The notes under the pieces: model-generated
Told to the model about the DNA's origin: nothing
Databases searched by the model: none
Seen by the model: only the letters and a program-made list of their open reading frames with translations
Program-made: the position numbers and the translations under genes
Shown here: one piece after another, positions 9,071 through 53,057 of the stretch
Layout of the letters: every line of letters begins with the position of its first letter
How positions within the stretch are numbered: the stretch's first letter is position 1
NCBI GenBank assembly: GCA_913055615.1
Contig: CAJXKK010000017.1
Coordinates: forward strand, 1 to 59,624
DNA length: 59,624 bases
Direction of reading: 5' to 3'
DNA from: an uncultured Ectothiorhodospiraceae bacterium
GTDB lineage: Bacteria > Pseudomonadota > Gammaproteobacteria > XJ16 > Halofilaceae

Positions 9071-9145
9071 TCGGGCGCAGTGCCGGCACCAGCCTGCGCC
9101 GGAGCGGCTGCGGCGTGGCCCGCAAACCGTCCTGGGCACGGCACC

Positions 9146-10780
9146 ATGACGAAACGGGATAGCACCGCCGATTCATCCGACAGCGCGGACAGCCGCGCCC
9201 GCCAGGCGCGGGCGCGTTCATCCGGACAGCCGGCAAAGCCGCTGGCGGGCGTGCTGTTCGACATGGACGGAGTGATCACCGACACGGCCGACGCGCATGC
9301 CGCGGCCTGGAAGCGGTTGTTCGACGAGTACCTGGCGGCACGCCCGGAGCGCGGTGGCGAGGACCACGAGCCGTTCGACCGCGAATCCGACTATCGTGCC
9401 TATGTCGATGGCAAACCCCGCTACGACGGTGTCGCGAGTTTCCTGGAGGCGCGCGGCATCGAACTGCCGCACGGGGATCCGTCCGACCCGCCGGAGCTGG
9501 AGACCATCTGCGGCCTTGGCAATCGCAAGGATGGTTATTTCACGCAATGGCTGCGGGATAATGAGGTCCGCCGTTATCCGACCACCGTCGCGCTCATCGA
9601 AGATCTGCGGGCCGCCGATATCCGGACCGCCGTGTTCTCCTCGAGCCGCAATTGCGAGGCCGTGCTGCGCGAGGCCGGGGTTCACGACCTGTTCGACACG
9701 CGCGTGGACGGCAACGACCTCGCCCGTCTCGAACTGCCGGGCAAGCCGGATCCGGCGATTCTCCACGAGGCGGCCGCCCGCCTCGGACTGTCCCCCGACG
9801 CAACCGCCGTGGTCGAGGACTCCGTGGCGGGTGTGGAGGCGGGTGCCCGTGGGGGGTATCGACCGGTGGTGGGGATCGACCGGGGTAACTACGGCCACGC
9901 ACTTCATGAGGCCGGCGCGGACATCGTGGTCCGGGACCCGGGCGAACTCCGCCTCGATCCGGATCGAACGCTGGTCACGCGACGGTTGCACACACTGCCC
10001 TCGGCGCGCGGACACCTTGCGGACATCCAGGCACGTATCGGCGACCGGACACCGGCGCTGTTCCTCGATTACGACGGGACGCTTACGCCGATCGTCACGG
10101 ATCCGGCGGCCGCGGATCTGGGACAGCGCATGCGATCCGTGCTGGATCGGCTCGCGCAGCACATGCCGGTGGCGATTATCAGCGGTCGGGGCCTGGACGA
10201 TCTGCAGCGGCGCGTGGGGCTCGATGCGGTGATCTACGCCGGTAGCCACGGCTTTGAGCTCAGAGGGCCCCGATTCGAGGAAACGGCGAAGCACGCCGAG
10301 GCGTTCCTGCCCGGACTCGACTCCGCCGAGGCGGCACTGCGCCAACGGCTCGCGAACATCGAGGGTGTTCTGATCGAGCGTAAACCCTTCGCCATCGCGG
10401 TGCATTATCGGCGGGCGGCGGCGAGTGCCGTCGATTCCGTTGAAGCCGAGGTGGACGCGGTGGTTTGCGGACAGCGTGGCCTGCGCAAACGCCACGGCAA
10501 GAAAGTCTTCCAGGTCCAGCCGCGGCTCGACTGGGACAAGGGCCACGCGGTGACCCGGCTGCTGGAACGGCTCGAACCCGAGCGCGGGGAATACATCCCG
10601 ATCTATATCGGTGATGACCTCACGGATGAGGATGCGTTCCGCGCCCTCGCCGGGCGCGGGCTCACGATCGCCGTGCGGGATGGCGAGCGCGCGACGGCCG
10701 CGGACTACGGCCTGGAAGATACCAGCGACGTCGAAAGTTTCCTCGCCGAACTGAGCGCACACGCGGACGCTGAACAATGA
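9146..10780 (+). CDS. Beta-phosphoglucomutase / trehalose-6-phosphate phosphatase fusion
   Basis: A 544-residue protein of two HAD enzymes. Residues about 35-275 form a beta-phosphoglucomutase-like domain (LFDMDGVITDT, nucleophile Asp39; FSSSRNCEAVL; PGKPDP; VVEDSVAGVEAG). Residues about 300-540 form an OtsB-type trehalose-6-phosphatase (LFLDYDGTLTPIV, nucleophile Asp308; ISGRGLDDL; YAGSHGFE; IGDDLTDEDAF). The first half should convert beta-glucose-1-phosphate to glucose-6-phosphate and the second dephosphorylate trehalose-6-phosphate. The stop overlaps the start of the GH65 gene by 4 bases. Domain order followed by GH65 is the same as in the single polypeptide OtsB1 (Rv2006) of M. tuberculosis. 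An alternative start 22 codons upstream (9080) is possible; the site before 9146 is weak. Confidence 0.92.
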   Translation: MTKRDSTADSSDSADSRARQARARSSGQPAKPLAGVLFDMDGVITDTADAHAAAWKRLFDEYLAARPERGGEDHEPFDRESDYRAYVDGKPRYDGVASFLEARGIELPHGDPSDPPELETICGLGNRKDGYFTQWLRDNEVRRYPTTVALIEDLRAADIRTAVFSSSRNCEAVLREAGVHDLFDTRVDGNDLARLELPGKPDPAILHEAAARLGLSPDATAVVEDSVAGVEAGARGGYRPVVGIDRGNYGHALHEAGADIVVRDPGELRLDPDRTLVTRRLHTLPSARGHLADIQARIGDRTPALFLDYDGTLTPIVTDPAAADLGQRMRSVLDRLAQHMPVAIISGRGLDDLQRRVGLDAVIYAGSHGFELRGPRFEETAKHAEAFLPGLDSAEAALRQRLANIEGVLIERKPFAIAVHYRRAAASAVDSVEAEVDAVVCGQRGLRKRHGKKVFQVQPRLDWDKGHAVTRLLERLEPERGEYIPIYIGDDLTDEDAFRALAGRGLTIAVRDGERATAADYGLEDTSDVESFLAELSAHADAEQ

Positions 10781-13215
10781 GCGAATGGACACTCGGCTAC
10801 CACGATTATGTACCGGAGGAGGAGGGACTGCGCGAGGCCCTCTGTGCGCTCGGCAACGGCTATTTCGTGACCCGCGGGGCCGCGCCCGACAGCGTTGCGG
10901 ACGCGGTCCACTATCCGGGCACGTATGTGGCGGGTGGCTACGATCGGCTCGTCAGCCGGGTCAGCGGACGCGACATCGAAAACGAGGATCTCGTCAATCT
11001 GCCGAACTGGCTGCGACTCGAAATCCGCAGTAAAGGCGGCGCCTGGTGCGGGATCGATGACGTCGAGCTGCTGGATTTCCGCCAGGAACTGGACCTCTAT
11101 GCCGGCGTGCTGACGCGCGACCTCCGGTTCCGGGACGACCAGGGACATACCACCCGCTGGCATGAACGCCGGCTGGTGAGCATGGCCGACCCGCATCTGG
11201 CGGCTTTGGCGGTGGAGATCACGCCGGAGGACTGGTCCGGCGACGTCGAACTCCGTACCGGCCTCGATGGCTCGGTGACGAATGCCGGTGTCAGCCGTTA
11301 TCGGGCGCTTGACGGGCAGCATCTGCAGATACTGGACGTCCAGCCGGTCGATGCCGAATCGATCATGCTGCACAGCCGCATGATTCAGTCGCGGCGCGAG
11401 CTGGCCCAGGCCGTGCGCACGCGTGTCTACCGCAACGGTGATCGTGTCACGGGCGAGCGCCGCACGATCCACACGGCCCGCTGGATTGCCCAGGAGATCG
11501 AGGCCACGGTGGAGGTGGATACCCCGATCGTGGTCGAAAAGACACTGGCACTGTATACCTCGCGCGATCCCGCGATCTCGGAAGCATGCCAGGCGGCGAG
11601 CCAGAGGGTCCGCGCGGCGGGCCGCTTCGATGAGCTGCGGGGCGCGCACGTTCAAAGCTGGCAACGCCTCTGGCACGAGTTCGATCCGCTCATCGAGTGG
11701 CGCGACGGCGCGGACCCGGCCGACGAAGACACGGTCCTCAAGGTTCGCCTGCATGCCTTTCACCTCTTGCAGACGCTGTCGCTGCATACCACCGACTATG
11801 ACGTCGGAGCGCCGGCGCGCGGCTGGCATGGCGAGGCCTACCGCGGGCACGTGTTCTGGGACGAACTGTTCATCTTTCCGGTCCTGAATCTGCGGCTGCC
11901 CGATCTCACCCGCGCGCTGCTGCTGTATCGCTTCCGGCGCCTGCCCGCGGCCCGCGCGGCCGCGCAACAGGCCGGCTACGCCGGTGCCATGTTCCCCTGG
12001 CAGAGCGGCAGCGAGGGCCGCGAGGAAAGCCAGAGCGTCCATCTGAATCCGCGTTCAGGCCGGTGGATCCCGGACAATTCGTACCGCCAGCGCCATATCA
12101 ATGCGGCGGTCGCCTATAACGTGTGGCAGTACTACCAGGCCACCGCGGATCACGAGTTCATGTTCTTCTACGGCACGGAGATCCTGATCGAGATCGCGCG
12201 TTTCTGGGTAAGCATCGCTACCCGGGACGAGGCCGACGGCGGCTGGTCGATCAGGGGCGTCATGGGGCCGGATGAGTACCACACCGCGTATCCGGGCGCG
12301 GATCCGGTCGCGGAAGGCGGTATCGACAACAACGCCTATACGAACGTCATGGCGGCGTGGTGCCTCCTGCGTGCGCAGGAGGCCCTCGACCTGCAGCCGG
12401 CCGACTCGCGCTGGGCTCTGTGCGATCGCGTAGCGCTCACGGACACGGAGATCGAGCACTGGGATGCGGTCAGCCGCGGGCTGCGGATACCGTTCCACGG
12501 TGACGGCATCATCAGCCAGTTCGAGGGCTATGAGGACCTGGAGGAGTTCGACTGGGACGGCTACCGTGCGGCCTACGGCGACATCCATCGCCTGGACCGT
12601 ATCCTGGAATCGGAAGGCGACACCCCCAACCGCTACAAGGTCTCGAAGCAGGCCGACGTACTGATGCTGTTCTACCTGTTTTCCGCCGATGAACTGCGGG
12701 TTCTCTTCGAGCGAATGGGCTATCGGCTGGAGCCGGACACGATCCCGAAGAACGTCGCCTACTATATGCAGCGAACGTCGCACGGCTCGACGCTGAGCTT
12801 CGTGGTGCATGCCTGGGTGCTCGCGCGATCGGACCGGGCCCGCTCGTGGCATTGCTTCCGGGAGGCGCTCGACAGCGATATCGCGGACGTCCAGGGCGGT
12901 ACCACGTCCGAGGGCATCCATCTTGGTGCCATGGCCGGTACGCTCGACCTGCTCAATCGCTGTTATCTGGGGATCGAGACCCGTGGCAATGTCCTGCACC
13001 TGGATCCGGCGCTGCCGGACAGCCTCGAGCGGCTGCGGTCGGTCCTGCGCTACCGCCAGCACAAGCTCGTCGTCGAGGCGACGCACGATACCGTCAGCGT
13101 GCGCAGCCACCCGCTGGTGGCCCCGCCGATCACGGTTGCTTATCGGGGCCGGGTGTACGAGCTGTCACCGGGACTGGATTTCACCTTCTCGCTGGTGCGG
13201 GAACCGCGTGCCTGA
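10777..13215 (+). CDS. Glycoside hydrolase family 65 disaccharide phosphorylase (trehalose/kojibiose type)
   Basis: An 812-residue GH65 protein with the usual N-terminal beta-sandwich, (alpha/alpha)6 barrel and small C-terminal domain. Family marks are LGNGYFVTRGA near the N-terminus, HGEAYRGHVFWDELFIFP, and the catalytic acid in RGVMGPDEYH (Glu500). KQADVLMLFYLF and the HGSTLSFVVHAWVLAR segment precede the phosphate-binding region TSEGIHLGAMAGTLD. GH65 enzymes invert linkage and release beta-glucose-1-phosphate, which matches the beta-PGM domain encoded just upstream with a 4-base overlap. Trehalose or trehalose-6-phosphate is the likely substrate from context; kojibiose, nigerose or maltose cannot be excluded from sequence alone. 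Confidence 0.92.
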   Translation: MSEWTLGYHDYVPEEEGLREALCALGNGYFVTRGAAPDSVADAVHYPGTYVAGGYDRLVSRVSGRDIENEDLVNLPNWLRLEIRSKGGAWCGIDDVELLDFRQELDLYAGVLTRDLRFRDDQGHTTRWHERRLVSMADPHLAALAVEITPEDWSGDVELRTGLDGSVTNAGVSRYRALDGQHLQILDVQPVDAESIMLHSRMIQSRRELAQAVRTRVYRNGDRVTGERRTIHTARWIAQEIEATVEVDTPIVVEKTLALYTSRDPAISEACQAASQRVRAAGRFDELRGAHVQSWQRLWHEFDPLIEWRDGADPADEDTVLKVRLHAFHLLQTLSLHTTDYDVGAPARGWHGEAYRGHVFWDELFIFPVLNLRLPDLTRALLLYRFRRLPAARAAAQQAGYAGAMFPWQSGSEGREESQSVHLNPRSGRWIPDNSYRQRHINAAVAYNVWQYYQATADHEFMFFYGTEILIEIARFWVSIATRDEADGGWSIRGVMGPDEYHTAYPGADPVAEGGIDNNAYTNVMAAWCLLRAQEALDLQPADSRWALCDRVALTDTEIEHWDAVSRGLRIPFHGDGIISQFEGYEDLEEFDWDGYRAAYGDIHRLDRILESEGDTPNRYKVSKQADVLMLFYLFSADELRVLFERMGYRLEPDTIPKNVAYYMQRTSHGSTLSFVVHAWVLARSDRARSWHCFREALDSDIADVQGGTTSEGIHLGAMAGTLDLLNRCYLGIETRGNVLHLDPALPDSLERLRSVLRYRQHKLVVEATHDTVSVRSHPLVAPPITVAYRGRVYELSPGLDFTFSLVREPRA

Positions 13216-36420: not shown

Positions 36421-38282
36421 GTGAGCATGCCTATCGGATGCCCTTTGGCACTACCGTGATGGAGGACGGCCGCGTCCGATTTCGTCTGTGGGCACCGGGG
36501 GCCGACGACGTCGCCCTGCGGATCGAAGACACGCCCATGGGCACGGAACTGACGATGGCGCCGGAGGCGAACGGCTGGTTCGGAATCCTGACCGCACTGG
36601 CGGTCCCCGGCAGCCGCTATCGATTCCGCCTCGACGGCGGAGATCTGCTGCCGGACCCCGCGTCCCGCTTCCAGCCCGAGGGCGTGCACGGACCGAGCGA
36701 GGTCGTCGATCCGTGCGAGTACGCCTGGACAGGAAGCGACTGGCGCGGGCGACCGTGGCATGAAGCGGTGATCTACGAACTCCATGTCGGGGCCTTTACG
36801 CCCGAGGGGACCTTTGCCGCTGCGGCGGAGCGCCTTGACCATGTCGCGTCGCTGGGCGTCACGGCGATCGAATTGATGCCGGTGGCGGCTTTCCCGGGCG
36901 CGCGCAACTGGGGTTACGACGGCGTGCTGCCGTTCGCGCCCGATGCCACGTATGGGCGGCCGGAAGATCTCAAGGCGCTGGTGGAAGCGGCTCATGAACG
37001 CGGGCTGATGGTCCTGCTCGACGTCGTCTACAACCACTTCGGTCCGGAGGGCAATTATCTGCCCCGTATCGCGCCGGATTTTTTCAGCACGCGCCACCAG
37101 ACACCCTGGGGGGCCGCCATCAACTACGATGGCCCCGGCAGCGTCCAGGTGCGCGCCTTCATGATCGACAACGCGTTGTACTGGTTGACCGAATTCGGTC
37201 TCGACGGGTTGCGGCTCGACGCCATCGATTCGATTGTTGACGATTCCAGCCCCGATATCGTCGCCGAGCTCGCCGCACGTGTACGAAGCGTTACGGCTGC
37301 CGGACGTCACGTCCATCTCGTGGTCGAGAATGACCGCAACGAGACCCGCTACCTGGAGCGCGATGCCCGCGGCCGGCCGCGGGCCTTCGACGCACAGTGG
37401 GACGACGATTTCCATCACGCGGCGCACGTGCTTGCCACGGGCGAGGATGACGGCTATTACCGCGATTATGCCGATCGGCCCGCCGAGTGGCTCGGCCGTT
37501 GCCTGGCCGAGGGCTTCGGCTATCAGGGGGAGCCCTCGGGCTGGCGTGCCGGCCGTGCACGGGGTTCGGACAGCCGCCACCTGCCGCCGACCGCGTTTGT
37601 CGGCTTCCTGCAGAATCACGATCAGATCGGCAACCGGGGTTTCGGTGAACGCCTCGCCTCGCTGGCACCACCCGAGGCGGTGCGCGCGCTCACGGAGGTT
37701 CTTCTGCTCGCGCCGCAGCCGCCGCTGCTGTTCATGGGTCAGGAATGGGCCACGACGCGGCCGTTTCTGTTCTTCTGCGACTTCGAGCCCGATATTGCCC
37801 GGCGGGTGGCTGACGGACGTCGCGAAGAGTTTTCCGGCTTTCGGTCGTTCAGCGACGCCTCGGCGCGCGCGCGGATCCCCGATCCAGGCGCTGCCGCGAC
37901 CTTTGCGGGCAGCGTGCTCGACTGGGACGAGCCGACGCGCCGTCCGCACGGCGACTGGCTGGAACTGCATCGGGCATTGCTCCGGCTGCGGCAGCGGGAG
38001 GTCGTCCCGCGCCTCGCGGATGTGGGTGGTCACTCCGGACGCTACCGGACGCACGGGGCCAACGGCGTGGCCGTGGACTGGTCGCTGGCCGATGCCAGCA
38101 CCCTGCGGCTGCGCGCCAACCTCGGTTCGGGCGCCATTACCGCGGTGGACGCCCCGACCGGCCGTCTGCTGCATGCGAGCCCGGACCAGAATGGTACCGG
38201 CCTGCCGGCGTGGTCGGTCCGCTGGTATCTCGACGAGCCGGGCGCGTCGGGGGGGAGCGTGAATGAGGGCCCGCTACCGTGA
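36417..38282 (+). CDS. treZ: Malto-oligosyltrehalose trehalohydrolase
   Basis: A 621-residue GH13 TreZ. After a short N-terminal beta domain ([13 protein letters not shown]) comes the barrel with [16 protein letters not shown] and [21 protein letters not shown]. Asp268 in DGLRLDAID, Glu304 in VVENDRN and Asp402 in NHDQIGNR are the catalytic trio. [18 protein letters not shown] is a TreZ signature. It hydrolyses maltooligosyltrehalose to free trehalose. It starts with GTG inside the glgX stop (GTGA) and its own stop overlaps the next gene in the same way, so all three genes are translationally coupled. Confidence 0.96.
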
Positions 38283-41200
38283 CCGATTCCGGGCTCCTCG
38301 CGCAGCTCGCCGACCTGGCCGGTATCAGCGCCGGCTACTGTGATAACCTGGGCAACGAACGCGAGACGTCCGATGCGACGCGACGGGCGCTCCTCGCGGC
38401 GATGGGGCTGGATATCTCGAGCGAAGCGGCGATCCACGCCGCGATCGACGGCTATCGCCGCCGCCCGTGGCGTCGCGTATTGCCCCCGGCACAAGTGGTC
38501 CGTGACCGTCGCCATATGCACGTCCCGGTGCGGCTGGCGGCCGCCACGATGGAGCATTCTCACCATTGGCGTCTCGAGACCGAGAGCGGCCACGAGTACC
38601 GCGGGGCGTTTACACCGGCGAACCTGGCGCACGAGGGTGAAATCGAACTCGATGGCGTGACCTGGCGCTGCGTCGGTCTCGAACTGCCGCTGGATCCCGG
38701 CATCGGCTACCACCAACTGGAGGTTGAGCTGCCTTCGGGGGTGCAGGCCCGGACGCGCCTGATCGTGTGCCCGCGGACCTGTCACGTACCGCCACGGGTG
38801 GAACAGGGGCTGCGCATCTGGGGACTGGCGGTGCAGCTCTATGCATTGCGCTCGGCGAACGACTGGGGCATCGGCGATTTCTCCCGCCTGGCCGAGTTGA
38901 CGCGCGGTGTGCGGGATCTCGGCGGCGACGCCGTCGGGCTCAATCCGCTGCACGCACTCTATCCGCACGCGCCGGAGGCACACGCGCCCTACAGTCCGTC
39001 CAGCCGGCTGTTCCTGAATGTGCTCTACATCGACCCGGAGAGTGTGCCCGAACTGGCCGAGGCACCGCCTGCGCGCGCACTCATGGAGCAGCCGGACTTC
39101 CGCCGTCGCCTGCAGGCCGCGCGCGCGAATGAGCTGGTCGACTATGTCGCGGTGGCCGCGCTGAAACGCCCGGTGCTGGAAGCCCTGTTCGCCGCGTTCC
39201 AGCGTCGCCACCTCGATGCCGATAGCGAGCGTGGCCGCGGCTTCGCCGCATTCCGCGCGCACGGTGGGGCCGCACTGCGCCGCCATGCGCTGTTCGAGGC
39301 GCTCGCCGAGCATTTCCCGGCGGGTGACGATGCCGGCCGTTGGCCCGAGGCCTTCCGCGACCCGGATTCGGCCGAGGTCGAGGAATTCGCCCATCGAAAC
39401 GCGCGGCGTGTGGCGTTCTTCGAATATCTGCAGTGGATCGCGGACGAGCAACTGGCGGCGGCGGGGCGGCAAGCGCGCGACAGCGGCATGGCCGTCGGCC
39501 TGTATCACGACCTCGCGGTGAGTGCCGCGGGCCATGGTGCGGAGGTCTGGGCGAACAAGGGGCTGTATGCGCCGGGCGTGAGCATCGGGTCGCCGCCGGA
39601 CGACTTCAATCCCCGCGGTCAGACGTGGGGCCTGCCACCGATGATCCCCGCGCGCCTGACTGAGTCCGCTTACACGCCGTTCATCGAGACGCTGCGCCGG
39701 AATATGCGTCATGCCGGCGCATTGCGCATCGATCATGCCATGGGGCTGATGCGCCTCTACTGGGTGCCCGACGGTCACGAAGCCGACGACGGCGCCTATG
39801 TCCAGTACCCGTTTTCGGACCTGCTGGGGATCGTCGCGCTCGAGAGCCGGCGCCACCGCTGTATGGTCATCGGCGAGGATCTCGGCACGGTGCCGGAGGC
39901 GGTGCCGCGGGCCTTCGACCCGGCCGAGCTGCAGTCGTACCGCGTCCTCTATTTCGAGCGCGAGGCGGACGGTGCATTCCGGGCCCCGCATGCGTACCCG
40001 GAACGCGCACTGGCGACCGTGAGTACGCATGATCTGCCGCCGCTCGCCGGCTACTGGGCCGCGCACGACCTGCTGACACGGGCTGAACTGGAACTGTTTC
40101 CTTCGGATGAAGTGCGTGTCGAGCAGTTCGAGCAGCGCGCGCACGACCGTGACGCTTTGCTCACGGCCCTCGGGCGCGAACGGTTGCTGCCGGCGGACGT
40201 ACCTGCAGCGGGCGCCGACGTCGCCCATCTCGATGGCGGCCTGCGGCGGGCAGTGCAGCGCTACGTGGCGCGCGCGCCCAGCCGCCTGATGATGGTCCAG
40301 CCCGAGGACGTGCTCGGCCAGCGTGAGCAGGCGAACCTGCCCGGCACGACCGACGAGCATCCGAACTGGCGCCGACGCCTGCCGGTGGCGGCGATGGACA
40401 TCGGCGCGCATCCGGAGTTCCGCGCGCTCGCCGATGCATTGGCCGAAGAGGGGCGCGGCCGCCCGGTCGAAGAGCCGACCCCGGTGGCGGCCGCGGGGGC
40501 TGCACCGCGCGCCACCTATCGTCTGCAGCTCGGTGCCGATCTGACCCTGCGCCATGCATGCGCGCTCGTGCCCTATCTGGAAGCGCTCGGGATCAGTCAC
40601 TGCTATCTGTCTCCGGTACTGCAGGCGCGGCCGGGCAGTACCCACGGCTACGATGTGGTCGATCACCACCGGATCGACGCCAGCGTCGGCGACCGGGACG
40701 ACTTCGAGGCGCTCGCGGGGGCGCTGCACGCGCGCGGTATGGGCCTGATCCTCGACATCGTTCCGAACCATATGGGGGTGATGGGCGCCGACAATGCCTG
40801 GTGGCTCGACGTCCTCGAGAACGGCCCGGCTTCCGCTTTCGCCGGGTATTTCGATATCGACTGGCAACCGGCGCGTGCCGAACTCGCAGGCCGCGTGCTG
40901 GTCCCCGTACTCGGTGACCATTACGGGGTCGTACTCGAGGCGGGTGAGCTGCGCCTCGGACTGGACGCGGACGCACGCGGGTTGGCCGTTCACTATTACG
41001 AGCATCGTTTCCCGCTGGATCCGGGTACCTGGCCGCTGCTGCTCGAGTATTGGCCGGAACACCTGGAAGCGGCGGTCGGCGCCGATTCGGTCGAGCTTGC
41101 CGAGCTCCGCGATCTGTCCGGCGCGCTCGCCGAACTGCCGGGGCGCGGCACGGTGGGTGCGGAACGCCGCGCGCAACGCGAGCGCGTCAAGGAGGGGGCT

Positions 41201-43378
41201 CGCGAGCGCCTCGCGAGGCTCTGCGGCGCGTGCCCCGAAATCCGCGCGCACCTCGACGCGGTGTGCGCCTTCTTCAATGGCCTGGTGGGCGAACCGTCGA
41301 GCTTCGAGCCTTTGCACGATCTGATTGAAGCGCAGGCCTGGCGGCTGGCGCACTGGCGGGTCGCCGGCGACGAGATCAACTATCGCCGTTTTTTCGATAT
41401 CAACGATCTGGCGGGGCTCACCGCGGAGCGCGAAGAGGTCTTCGAAGCGACCCATCGACTCGTCCTCGACCTGCGGGCGGGCGGGCACCTGGACGGTGTG
41501 CGTGTGGACCATCCGGACGGCCTGTACGACCCCCGCGGCTATCTGCGGCGGCTGGCCCGCCGTCTCGAGTCCGCCGCACCCGCGGGGGCGGTGCCGGCCT
41601 ATCGCGTGGTCGAGAAAATCCTGATGGGTTCCGAGTCGCTGCCCGGAGACTGGCCGGTGCACGGAACCACCGGCTACGACTTCGCCAATCTCGTGGGACG
41701 ACTGTTCGTCGATCCCGGCGGTGAACGCGGCCTGACCAACGCGTACCATCGTTTTGTCGGTCGCCGGGTCCGTTTCGACGTGGAGACCTATCAGGCCCGG
41801 CACCAGGTCATGCGTCGCCAGATGGCCGCCGAACTGGCGACCCTGGCGAACCGTCTCGATCGTCTGACCGAACTGGACTGGCGCACGCGTGACTTCACCC
41901 GGGCCGGCCTGCGCGAGGCGCTCGCCGAGATGATCGCCTGCTTCCCGGTCTACCGCACGTATATCGAACCGGAACGGGTTTCGGCGCATGATCGCGCGAC
42001 GATCGAGCACGTATTCGCGCGCGCGACCGCGAACGCCCGTATCGATCCCGGTGTACTGGCTTTCGTGCGGGACGTCCTCCTGTTGCGGCCGGATTCGGCG
42101 CTGGGCGAATCGATGCGCCCGGCGCTCGCCGATCTGGTCATGCGATTCCAGCAGTACAGCGCGGCGGTAGCGGCAAAGGCCGTCGAGGACACCGCGTTTT
42201 ATCGCCACTATCGCCTTGTCGCGCTGAATGAGGTCGGCGGCGATCCGGGTGACTTCGCGGCGTCTCCCGCCCGGGTCCATCGCACGCTGGCCGAACAGGC
42301 GCGTGCCTGGCCGCAGACCATGCTCAACACCGCCACGCACGACGCCAAGCGCGGCGAGGACGTCCGGGCGCGTCTGCACGCACTGTCCGAACTGCCCGCT
42401 CAATGGCGCACCGCCGTGGCCCGATGGCGCGAATGCAACCGGCGTCATCGGCGCGATGCGCGCGGGCGTCGCGCGCCCGACCGCGAAGATGAGTATCTGT
42501 TCTATCAGACCCTGTTGGGGTCGTGGCCGGCGCATGGCGAAGGCCCGGACGAGGCCTTCGCGGAGCGCCTGCGCGGATACCTGTGCAAGGCCGCGCGCGA
42601 AGCCGGTCGGGAAACCTCCTGGTGGCAGCCGGACAGCGCCTATGAACAGGCACTCGGGGCATTCGTGGACGGCGCACTCGGGGACAGCGCATTCCGCGCG
42701 GCGTTCGAGCCGATGCGCGCGCGGGTCCAGCGTCTCGGCTGCGCGAACGCGCTCGGCCAGTGTCTGGTGAAGTTGACCGCGCCGGGCGTGCCGGACCTGT
42801 ATCAGGGCAGCGAGCTCTGGCAGCTCGCGCTGGTCGACCCGGATAATCGACGTGCGGTCGATTTCGAGGCGCTCGCCGGGCATATGGAAACCATCCGCGC
42901 CATCGAGGCGATGCCGGTCGCGCGTCGACGGGACCGGCTCGCCGCGCTCATGGCGGGCGACCACAGCGGCCTCGCCAAGCAGTTCCTGATCCGCCAGACC
43001 CTGGGCGTGCGCCGGCATCTGGCGTCCGTTTTCCGCGACGGTGACTACGTGCCGCTGGAGACCGCCGGCGAGCATTCGGACCACGTCTTTGCGTTCGCCC
43101 GCAGACATGGCGACACGATCGCGGTGACGGCGGTTCCCCGGCTCACGGGCACGCTCACCAACGGTGGCCGCGAGCCCCTGACCGCCGACGTGTGGGGGAC
43201 GACGCGCATACGCCTGCCACCGACCCCGGATGTCGACGGCGCGTTGTCCGATACGATTGCCGGTGGCGTGGTTCCGATCGAGTCTGACGGCACGCACCAG
43301 ACGATTGCCTGTCGCGAGTTGTTCGGTGGATTGCCGGGGAGCCTTCTGGTACCCGGCCGCTCGCTCAAAGGAAGCTGA
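38279..43378 (+). CDS. Fusion of 4-alpha-glucanotransferase (MalQ) and malto-oligosyltrehalose synthase (TreY)
   Basis: A 1699-residue two-enzyme protein. Residues about 1-735 are a GH77 amylomaltase with RIDHAMGLMR (Asp485), GEDLGTVPE (Glu533) and STHDLPPLAGYW (Asp585). A short Pro/Ala-rich linker (EEPTPVAAAGAAP) leads at about residue 742 into TreY (GH13_26): TYRLQLGADLTLRHA, GSTHGYDVVDH, GVRVDHPDGL (Asp1077), VVEKIL (Glu1112), TATHDAKRGED (Asp1355) and PDLYQGSELW. Both catalytic sets are complete. MalQ would lengthen short maltodextrins by disproportionation and TreY would turn their reducing end into a trehalose unit for TreZ. The start is GTG, overlapping treZ. Such genes are usually separate. 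Confidence 0.94.
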   Translation: MTDSGLLAQLADLAGISAGYCDNLGNERETSDATRRALLAAMGLDISSEAAIHAAIDGYRRRPWRRVLPPAQVVRDRRHMHVPVRLAAATMEHSHHWRLETESGHEYRGAFTPANLAHEGEIELDGVTWRCVGLELPLDPGIGYHQLEVELPSGVQARTRLIVCPRTCHVPPRVEQGLRIWGLAVQLYALRSANDWGIGDFSRLAELTRGVRDLGGDAVGLNPLHALYPHAPEAHAPYSPSSRLFLNVLYIDPESVPELAEAPPARALMEQPDFRRRLQAARANELVDYVAVAALKRPVLEALFAAFQRRHLDADSERGRGFAAFRAHGGAALRRHALFEALAEHFPAGDDAGRWPEAFRDPDSAEVEEFAHRNARRVAFFEYLQWIADEQLAAAGRQARDSGMAVGLYHDLAVSAAGHGAEVWANKGLYAPGVSIGSPPDDFNPRGQTWGLPPMIPARLTESAYTPFIETLRRNMRHAGALRIDHAMGLMRLYWVPDGHEADDGAYVQYPFSDLLGIVALESRRHRCMVIGEDLGTVPEAVPRAFDPAELQSYRVLYFEREADGAFRAPHAYPERALATVSTHDLPPLAGYWAAHDLLTRAELELFPSDEVRVEQFEQRAHDRDALLTALGRERLLPADVPAAGADVAHLDGGLRRAVQRYVARAPSRLMMVQPEDVLGQREQANLPGTTDEHPNWRRRLPVAAMDIGAHPEFRALADALAEEGRGRPVEEPTPVAAAGAAPRATYRLQLGADLTLRHACALVPYLEALGISHCYLSPVLQARPGSTHGYDVVDHHRIDASVGDRDDFEALAGALHARGMGLILDIVPNHMGVMGADNAWWLDVLENGPASAFAGYFDIDWQPARAELAGRVLVPVLGDHYGVVLEAGELRLGLDADARGLAVHYYEHRFPLDPGTWPLLLEYWPEHLEAAVGADSVELAELRDLSGALAELPGRGTVGAERRAQRERVKEGARERLARLCGACPEIRAHLDAVCAFFNGLVGEPSSFEPLHDLIEAQAWRLAHWRVAGDEINYRRFFDINDLAGLTAEREEVFEATHRLVLDLRAGGHLDGVRVDHPDGLYDPRGYLRRLARRLESAAPAGAVPAYRVVEKILMGSESLPGDWPVHGTTGYDFANLVGRLFVDPGGERGLTNAYHRFVGRRVRFDVETYQARHQVMRRQMAAELATLANRLDRLTELDWRTRDFTRAGLREALAEMIACFPVYRTYIEPERVSAHDRATIEHVFARATANARIDPGVLAFVRDVLLLRPDSALGESMRPALADLVMRFQQYSAAVAAKAVEDTAFYRHYRLVALNEVGGDPGDFAASPARVHRTLAEQARAWPQTMLNTATHDAKRGEDVRARLHALSELPAQWRTAVARWRECNRRHRRDARGRRAPDREDEYLFYQTLLGSWPAHGEGPDEAFAERLRGYLCKAAREAGRETSWWQPDSAYEQALGAFVDGALGDSAFRAAFEPMRARVQRLGCANALGQCLVKLTAPGVPDLYQGSELWQLALVDPDNRRAVDFEALAGHMETIRAIEAMPVARRRDRLAALMAGDHSGLAKQFLIRQTLGVRRHLASVFRDGDYVPLETAGEHSDHVFAFARRHGDTIAVTAVPRLTGTLTNGGREPLTADVWGTTRIRLPPTPDVDGALSDTIAGGVVPIESDGTHQTIACRELFGGLPGSLLVPGRSLKGS

Positions 43379-43462: not shown

Positions 43463-44266
43463 TCAGTCGCCGGAACCGTCGATCTCCGCCAGCATAGCCA
43501 GCCGTGCCGGGTCCAGAATACGCATCCGGCGACGGCCGTCGGGGCTGACGACGCCTTCCTGCTGCAACCGGGAGAGTGCCCGGCTGGTCGTTTCCGTCGC
43601 CAGACCGAGGAAGCTGGCGATGTCGCCGCGCCGCATCGGCAGGTGCAGTTCGCTCCAGTCGAGTCCCGCCATCCGCAGGCGCCGTGACCAGTCGTGCAGA
43701 AACAGCGCGATACGCGCCTCGGCGTGGCGCCGTCCCATGATCAGGACATGCTGCTGCGAGAGCGTCGTGGCTTACTCCATCAGGCGGAAGATCTGTGGCT
43801 GCAGGCCGTCAACGCGGCGGGCGGCCTCCAGGAGTCGCGACAGATGGATCGCGCATACGCTCGAGCGCTCAAGCGCAACGATCCGGCCGCCCGAAAACGC
43901 CTCGATGCCGGTGCCGAAGCCCGCCGCATCGCCCGGCAGGTGAAATCCCAGGATCTGTTCGCGGCCGTTCGCTTCCTGTACCGAGGTCAGCAGACTGCCC
44001 GAACGCACGATGAACAGTTCCTCCGGCGCGCCGCCCTCGAAGACGCATTGATTGCGGTCCAGCGGGGGGATCGGGCGGAGCACATCGCGCAACGCCTTGT
44101 GGTCGGGCAGAGTGAGCTGCGCGGGCAGGCAACCGGGGGCAAGCTGACAGGTTGTACATGGTGCGGCGCGCGGATGCGCACGGTCGATCAGGCCGTGGCC
44201 GAGGGTCCCGCTCTTGGTGGAGACGTCTGCAGTCGCTCCCTCCTCCTCTTCGTACCCGCTTCGCAC
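43463..44266 (-). pseudogene. FNR-type CRP/FNR regulator interrupted by an in-frame TAA
   Basis: The first segment (44266-43772, 164 residues) is an FNR sensor. It has Cys37, Cys40 and Cys46 spaced C-x2-C-x5-C and Cys138 92 residues later, the arrangement that binds the oxygen-labile [4Fe-4S] cluster in FNR. It ends FRLME and then TAA (43774-43772). The same frame continues without shift as ATTLSQQHVLIMGRRHAEAR and a winged-helix domain, with ETTSRALSRL matching the FNR recognition-helix pattern ExxSR, ending at 43463. The stop lies in the dimerisation helix, so a terminated product lacks the DNA-binding domain. Reinitiation at the ATG at 43738 could give a 91-residue fragment. A nonsense mutation, sequencing error or readthrough are the options. 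The start is GTG with GGAG upstream. Confidence 0.82.
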
Positions 44267-48376: not shown

Positions 48377-48390
48377 GTGATCATAATCAA
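48377..48390 (+). promoter_or_regulatory. FNR-type box between hppA and glgC
   Basis: GTGATCATAATCAA (48377-48390) has one mismatch to TTGAY-N4-RTCAA and lies 95 nt before the glgC ATG. The class II -10 position toward glgC holds only TACGCC (48413-48418). The same box could serve hppA on the minus strand, where the -10 is also weak. Confidence 0.5.
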
Positions 48391-53016: not shown

Positions 53017-53057
53017 TTGATAAAAATCCACGAGTGATCTGACTCGGCGGTTATCGT
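53017..53057 (+). promoter_or_regulatory. FNR-type box and -10 for the SPW protein
   Basis: TTGATAAAAATCCA (53017-53030) has one mismatch to TTGAT-N4-ATCAA. TATCGT at 53052-53057 is one base from the class II -10 position, and the gene starts at 53108. It lies in the 270-bp gap between divergent ftsH and the SPW gene. Confidence 0.55.

Follow-up and report, generated by a model that had tools for sequence, protein, structure and literature searches.

The window, by which we mean the whole 59,624-nucleotide stretch of DNA analysed here, carries on its minus strand (44266-43463) an FNR-type gene that reads as 164 sense codons, a TAA stop codon (43774-43772), a further 102 sense codons and a terminal TGA. 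The initial annotation had described a sensor half and a DNA-binding half in one frame, separated by this TAA inside the dimerisation helix and retaining four cluster cysteines and an ExxSR motif, and translation, Pfam searches and alignment to FNR confirmed this description. The sensor half matched the cNMP-binding domain (39 bits), and the DNA-binding half matched HTH_Crp_2 (66 bits) and Crp (40 bits). When the gene was read with an X at the stop, residues 34 to 259 aligned with the solved FNR of Aliivibrio fischeri (E ~3e-32). The cluster cysteines are C37, C40, C46 and C138, and the recognition helix of the CRP-type HTH contains E225, S228 and R229. In the same reading the protein reached 134.3 bits against the NCBIfam Fnr subfamily model, below its cut-off of 228 bits. 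In DNA of 67% GC an open frame beyond a stop is weak evidence by itself, as illustrated by the 1751-codon open reading frame antisense to the malQ-treY fusion gene, a GC-rich artefact. It is the similarity of sequence and domains, not the open frame, that establishes the gene as more than a product of chance. The features of the locus and of the rest of the window are listed in Table 1.

Table 1. Features of the interrupted FNR-type gene and other features of the window
Feature	Position	Strand	Remarks
Sensor half	43775..44266	-	GTG start; four cluster cysteines; cNMP-binding-like domain; ends within dimerisation helix; Shine-Dalgarno pairing -7.7 kcal/mol
In-frame TAA stop	43772..43774	-	FNR residue 149 position
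Atypical patch across stop	43757..43777	-	FNR residues 148-154; lowest score among 62 family members
DNA-binding half, same frame	43463..43771	-	HTH with ETTSR recognition helix
First ATG of DNA-binding half	43736..43738	-	FNR position ~161; no ribosome-binding site (+0.3 kcal/mol)
Perfect FNR box TTGATCTTGATCAA	34037..34050	+	Upstream of glgX
FNR-type box, one mismatch	start 25269
FNR-type box, one mismatch	48377-48390		Upstream of glgC
FNR-type box, one mismatch	53017-53030		Between ftsH and a small gene
malQ-treY fusion gene	38279-43378		1699 residues; 4-alpha-glucanotransferase (MalQ) fused to malto-oligosyltrehalose synthase (TreY); full-length orthologue absent from two sister species
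HAD-trehalose-phosphatase fusion gene	9080-10780		HAD-family hydrolase domain fused to trehalose-phosphatase domain; adjoins the following gene
Glycoside hydrolase family 65 gene	10777-13215

Alignment to A. fischeri FNR placed the TAA at native residue 149, within the dimerisation helix, which spans residues 140-159 in E. coli FNR; there, the protein is permanently monomeric with the exchange I151A and constitutively dimeric with D154A (PMC4214427). A fragment ending at residue 148 is missing the rest of this helix, with positions 151 and 154. A continuous helix with a hydrophobic residue at 151 and a usually acidic one at 154 was not found beyond the stop either, where the gene encodes Thr at 151 and Ser at 154. 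Positions 148 and 150-154 together scored a mean of -1.59 bits per residue, the lowest value of 62 family members (the next was -0.43), while the flanks on either side of this patch scored as typical. The earlier view that both halves are well preserved is thus correct as regards the cysteines and the HTH, whereas the helix near the stop does not bear it out. Judged from these residues, the stop is not a lone stop within a canonical helix, and a single clean substitution would not account for the history of the gene: several changes may have arisen at the same time, or the helix may have been altered before the stop arose or after it. An origin of the stop by paired small indels was locally suggestive but statistically not significant.

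The atypical patch bears directly on the leading alternative, in our estimate an unlikely one, that the stop is a sequencing or assembly error and the organism itself has an intact gene. Such an error would fit the presence of both recognisable domains in one frame and the fact that the breaks in two of the genome's FNR-type genes are very small changes. It would also fit the observation that in two-codon windows the gene's largest alternative-frame gain falls at the stop, about half of this gain being supplied by an arbitrary stop penalty. However, no internal stop was seen in any of the genome's 66 ABC_tran domain matches, indicating an assembly that is not error-ridden, though one in which a local error may occur, and the further large genes of the window that were checked were intact. 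Moreover, TAA lies one base from few common codons in a 67% GC genome, and a single wrong base would leave the other six atypical residues around the stop unexplained, making it less likely that one base was miscalled in a gene that is canonical elsewhere. A sense codon at 43772-43774, which according to the initial annotation would make this an intact gene, would not by itself yield a typical FNR helix.

The two halves differ in their prospects of being translated. Anti-Shine-Dalgarno pairing amounted to -7.7 kcal/mol at the GTG start of the N-terminal half versus +0.3 kcal/mol at the ATG at 43738 in the C-terminal half, and the computed pairing revealed no ribosome-binding site ahead of this ATG. 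A product starting there (about residue 161) would be a DNA-binding domain without the dimerisation helix. As the N-terminal half lacks positions 151 and 154 and the C-terminal half lacks both the dimerisation helix and a Shine-Dalgarno sequence, we infer that neither half can act as FNR.

In the tree, the terminal branch of the window gene measured 2.07, compared to a median of 0.49. No orthologue of the gene was found in two sister species, and its neighbours malQ-treY and a DUF72 gene likewise have no full-length close orthologue there. Owing to the long branch and these neighbours, the gene looks accessory. Intact homologues exist with up to 47% identity, and a search for a closer orthologue in genome contigs, plasmids and about 660 whole genomes returned no match exceeding 47% identity along the gene. 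The DNA-binding half scored z = +1.0 relative to the sensor half, showing no decay of its own, and simulated neutral change lowered the HTH score by 0.7 SD at 0.02 and by 1.3 SD at 0.04 substitutions per site. Set against the synonymous divergence of 0.40-0.55 that the intact FNR gene described below shows between sister species, the good HTH score suggests that constraint on the HTH was lost recently on the genus timescale, provided that the starting score was typical of the family; no sister strain carries the gene, and the age is estimated from this family score. The good DNA-binding half agrees with the very recent inactivation suggested by the initial annotation if recent is understood on this timescale. 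As for relaxed selection after the break, the HTH shows no decay, but the residues around the stop are atypical.

Further regulators of the CRP/FNR type were found in the same genome. The second FNR gene whose existence had been raised as a point to check is located on contig 16 (G000:C16:18917-19621), beside genes reading as etfB and etfA, and is intact with its cysteines. Its product is 41% identical to that of the window gene across the whole length, but it is uninterrupted, has a canonical helix (RIISRELVQDHQHL) and is conserved in a sister species. Contigs 5, 4 and 37 encode three CRP/FNR-type proteins that lack the FNR cysteine pattern. The gene on contig 4 (L046, G000:C4:111000-114000) adjoins one reading as cydA, for cytochrome bd oxidase subunit I.

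Allowing up to one mismatch, there are four FNR boxes in the window and 77 in the 3.0-Mb genome, the latter corresponding to about 1.5 per window length. The expectation that the boxes must be read by another CRP/FNR protein is borne out in so far as the contig 16 FNR exists as a candidate, and it would be the simplest reader of these predicted sites. The window should therefore not be treated as an island with its own regulator, as the housekeeping FNR most simply reads its boxes. The boxes upstream of glgX and glgC and between ftsH and the small gene hint at a low-oxygen control of glycogen genes.

A third FNR-type gene with the cysteines, located on contig 7 of the same genome (L043, G000:C7:99591-100400), is broken as well. 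Like the window gene, it is interrupted where the sensor and DNA-binding halves meet, but it is a different paralog, the lesion is a one-base frameshift near residue 161 rather than a stop, and its orthologue in the sister species G002 (L030) is intact. Low dN/dS values for both of its halves (0.16 and 0.11) indicate that this break is recent, too. After the break, its HTH half shows two new prolines and a Glu-to-Lys exchange in the recognition helix. In an unrelated single-contig genome, G036, the first of two tandem FNR genes (L019, G036:C1:196036-196809) contains an in-frame TAA near residue 160. This gene and the window gene have the only two truly internal stops among about 340 FNR matches listed in three surveys that share some matches. 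All of the other flagged stops that were inspected were natural ends or lay upstream of the start, so that for the listed matches a conserved split was rejected. A search of the open literature for split or pseudogene FNR found nothing relevant. The position of the three breaks within 13 residues (149, ~160 and ~161) is curious, but it was noticed post hoc.

Taken together, we consider it probable, at roughly three in four, that the window gene is an accessory FNR paralog that became an ordinary pseudogene fairly recently. A disabling in-frame change separates essential domains, intact homologues are present, and interrupted forms are the exception. The N-terminal half would presumably still be translated from its GTG, giving a 164-residue sensor fragment that could not dimerise and would be degraded or inert; the C-terminal half would probably not be made, and the FNR boxes of the window would be read by the intact contig 16 FNR. 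The paralog would be dispensable because it was redundant; the contig 7 paralog is broken too. We regard the locus as a clear example of FNR paralogs losing their redundancy. Of the three FNR-type copies with the cysteines that were found in the genome, two are broken and one working oxygen switch is left.

A functional split, in which the sensor fragment or the DNA-binding half acts alone or as a partner of an intact FNR, would represent a new regulator architecture, and we regard it as quite improbable. The retained cluster cysteines and HTH residues, the two other FNR genes broken at the same junction and the ability of FNR paralogs to heterodimerise via the dimerisation helix (PMC5934665) would be in line with it. 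The evidence nevertheless points the opposite way: the only two truly internal stops of the listed matches occur in unrelated genomes, and the contig 7 copy has an intact orthologue and shows the new prolines and the Glu-to-Lys exchange after its break. Of two forms of this idea, a dominant-partner role of the sensor half, put forward earlier, conflicts with the loss of the helix from residue 149 on, including 151 and 154 (PMC4214427), and separate translation of the C-terminal half with the absence of a Shine-Dalgarno sequence at its ATG. A related idea, that junction breaks recur in FNR paralogs since cells tolerate a free sensor fragment or benefit from it, for instance as a cluster-binding decoy, appears very improbable to us. 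Readthrough of the TAA to some full-length FNR, also suggested previously, is the least probable of all, for although the frame is open on both sides, the stop is a TAA, no ochre-suppressor anticodon was present among the tRNAs recovered from the genome, the RNA downstream of the stop shows no special structure, its folding being like that of shuffled sequences (z -0.07), and a helix read through the stop would still lack the typical residues.

The pseudogene we propose can be set beside two known systems. With the FNR proteins of A. fischeri and E. coli it shares the Cys-x2-Cys-x5-Cys motif and the distal Cys, the cNMP-like fold, the ETxSR recognition helix and an almost full-length alignment, but it differs from them by the in-frame stop at residue 149, by atypical residues at 148, 150, 151 and 154 and by its score below the NCBIfam Fnr cut-off. 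Herbaspirillum seropedicae, like the source genome, has several FNR copies in one genome; its Fnr1 and Fnr3, unlike the window gene, are working regulators that interact (PMC5934665).
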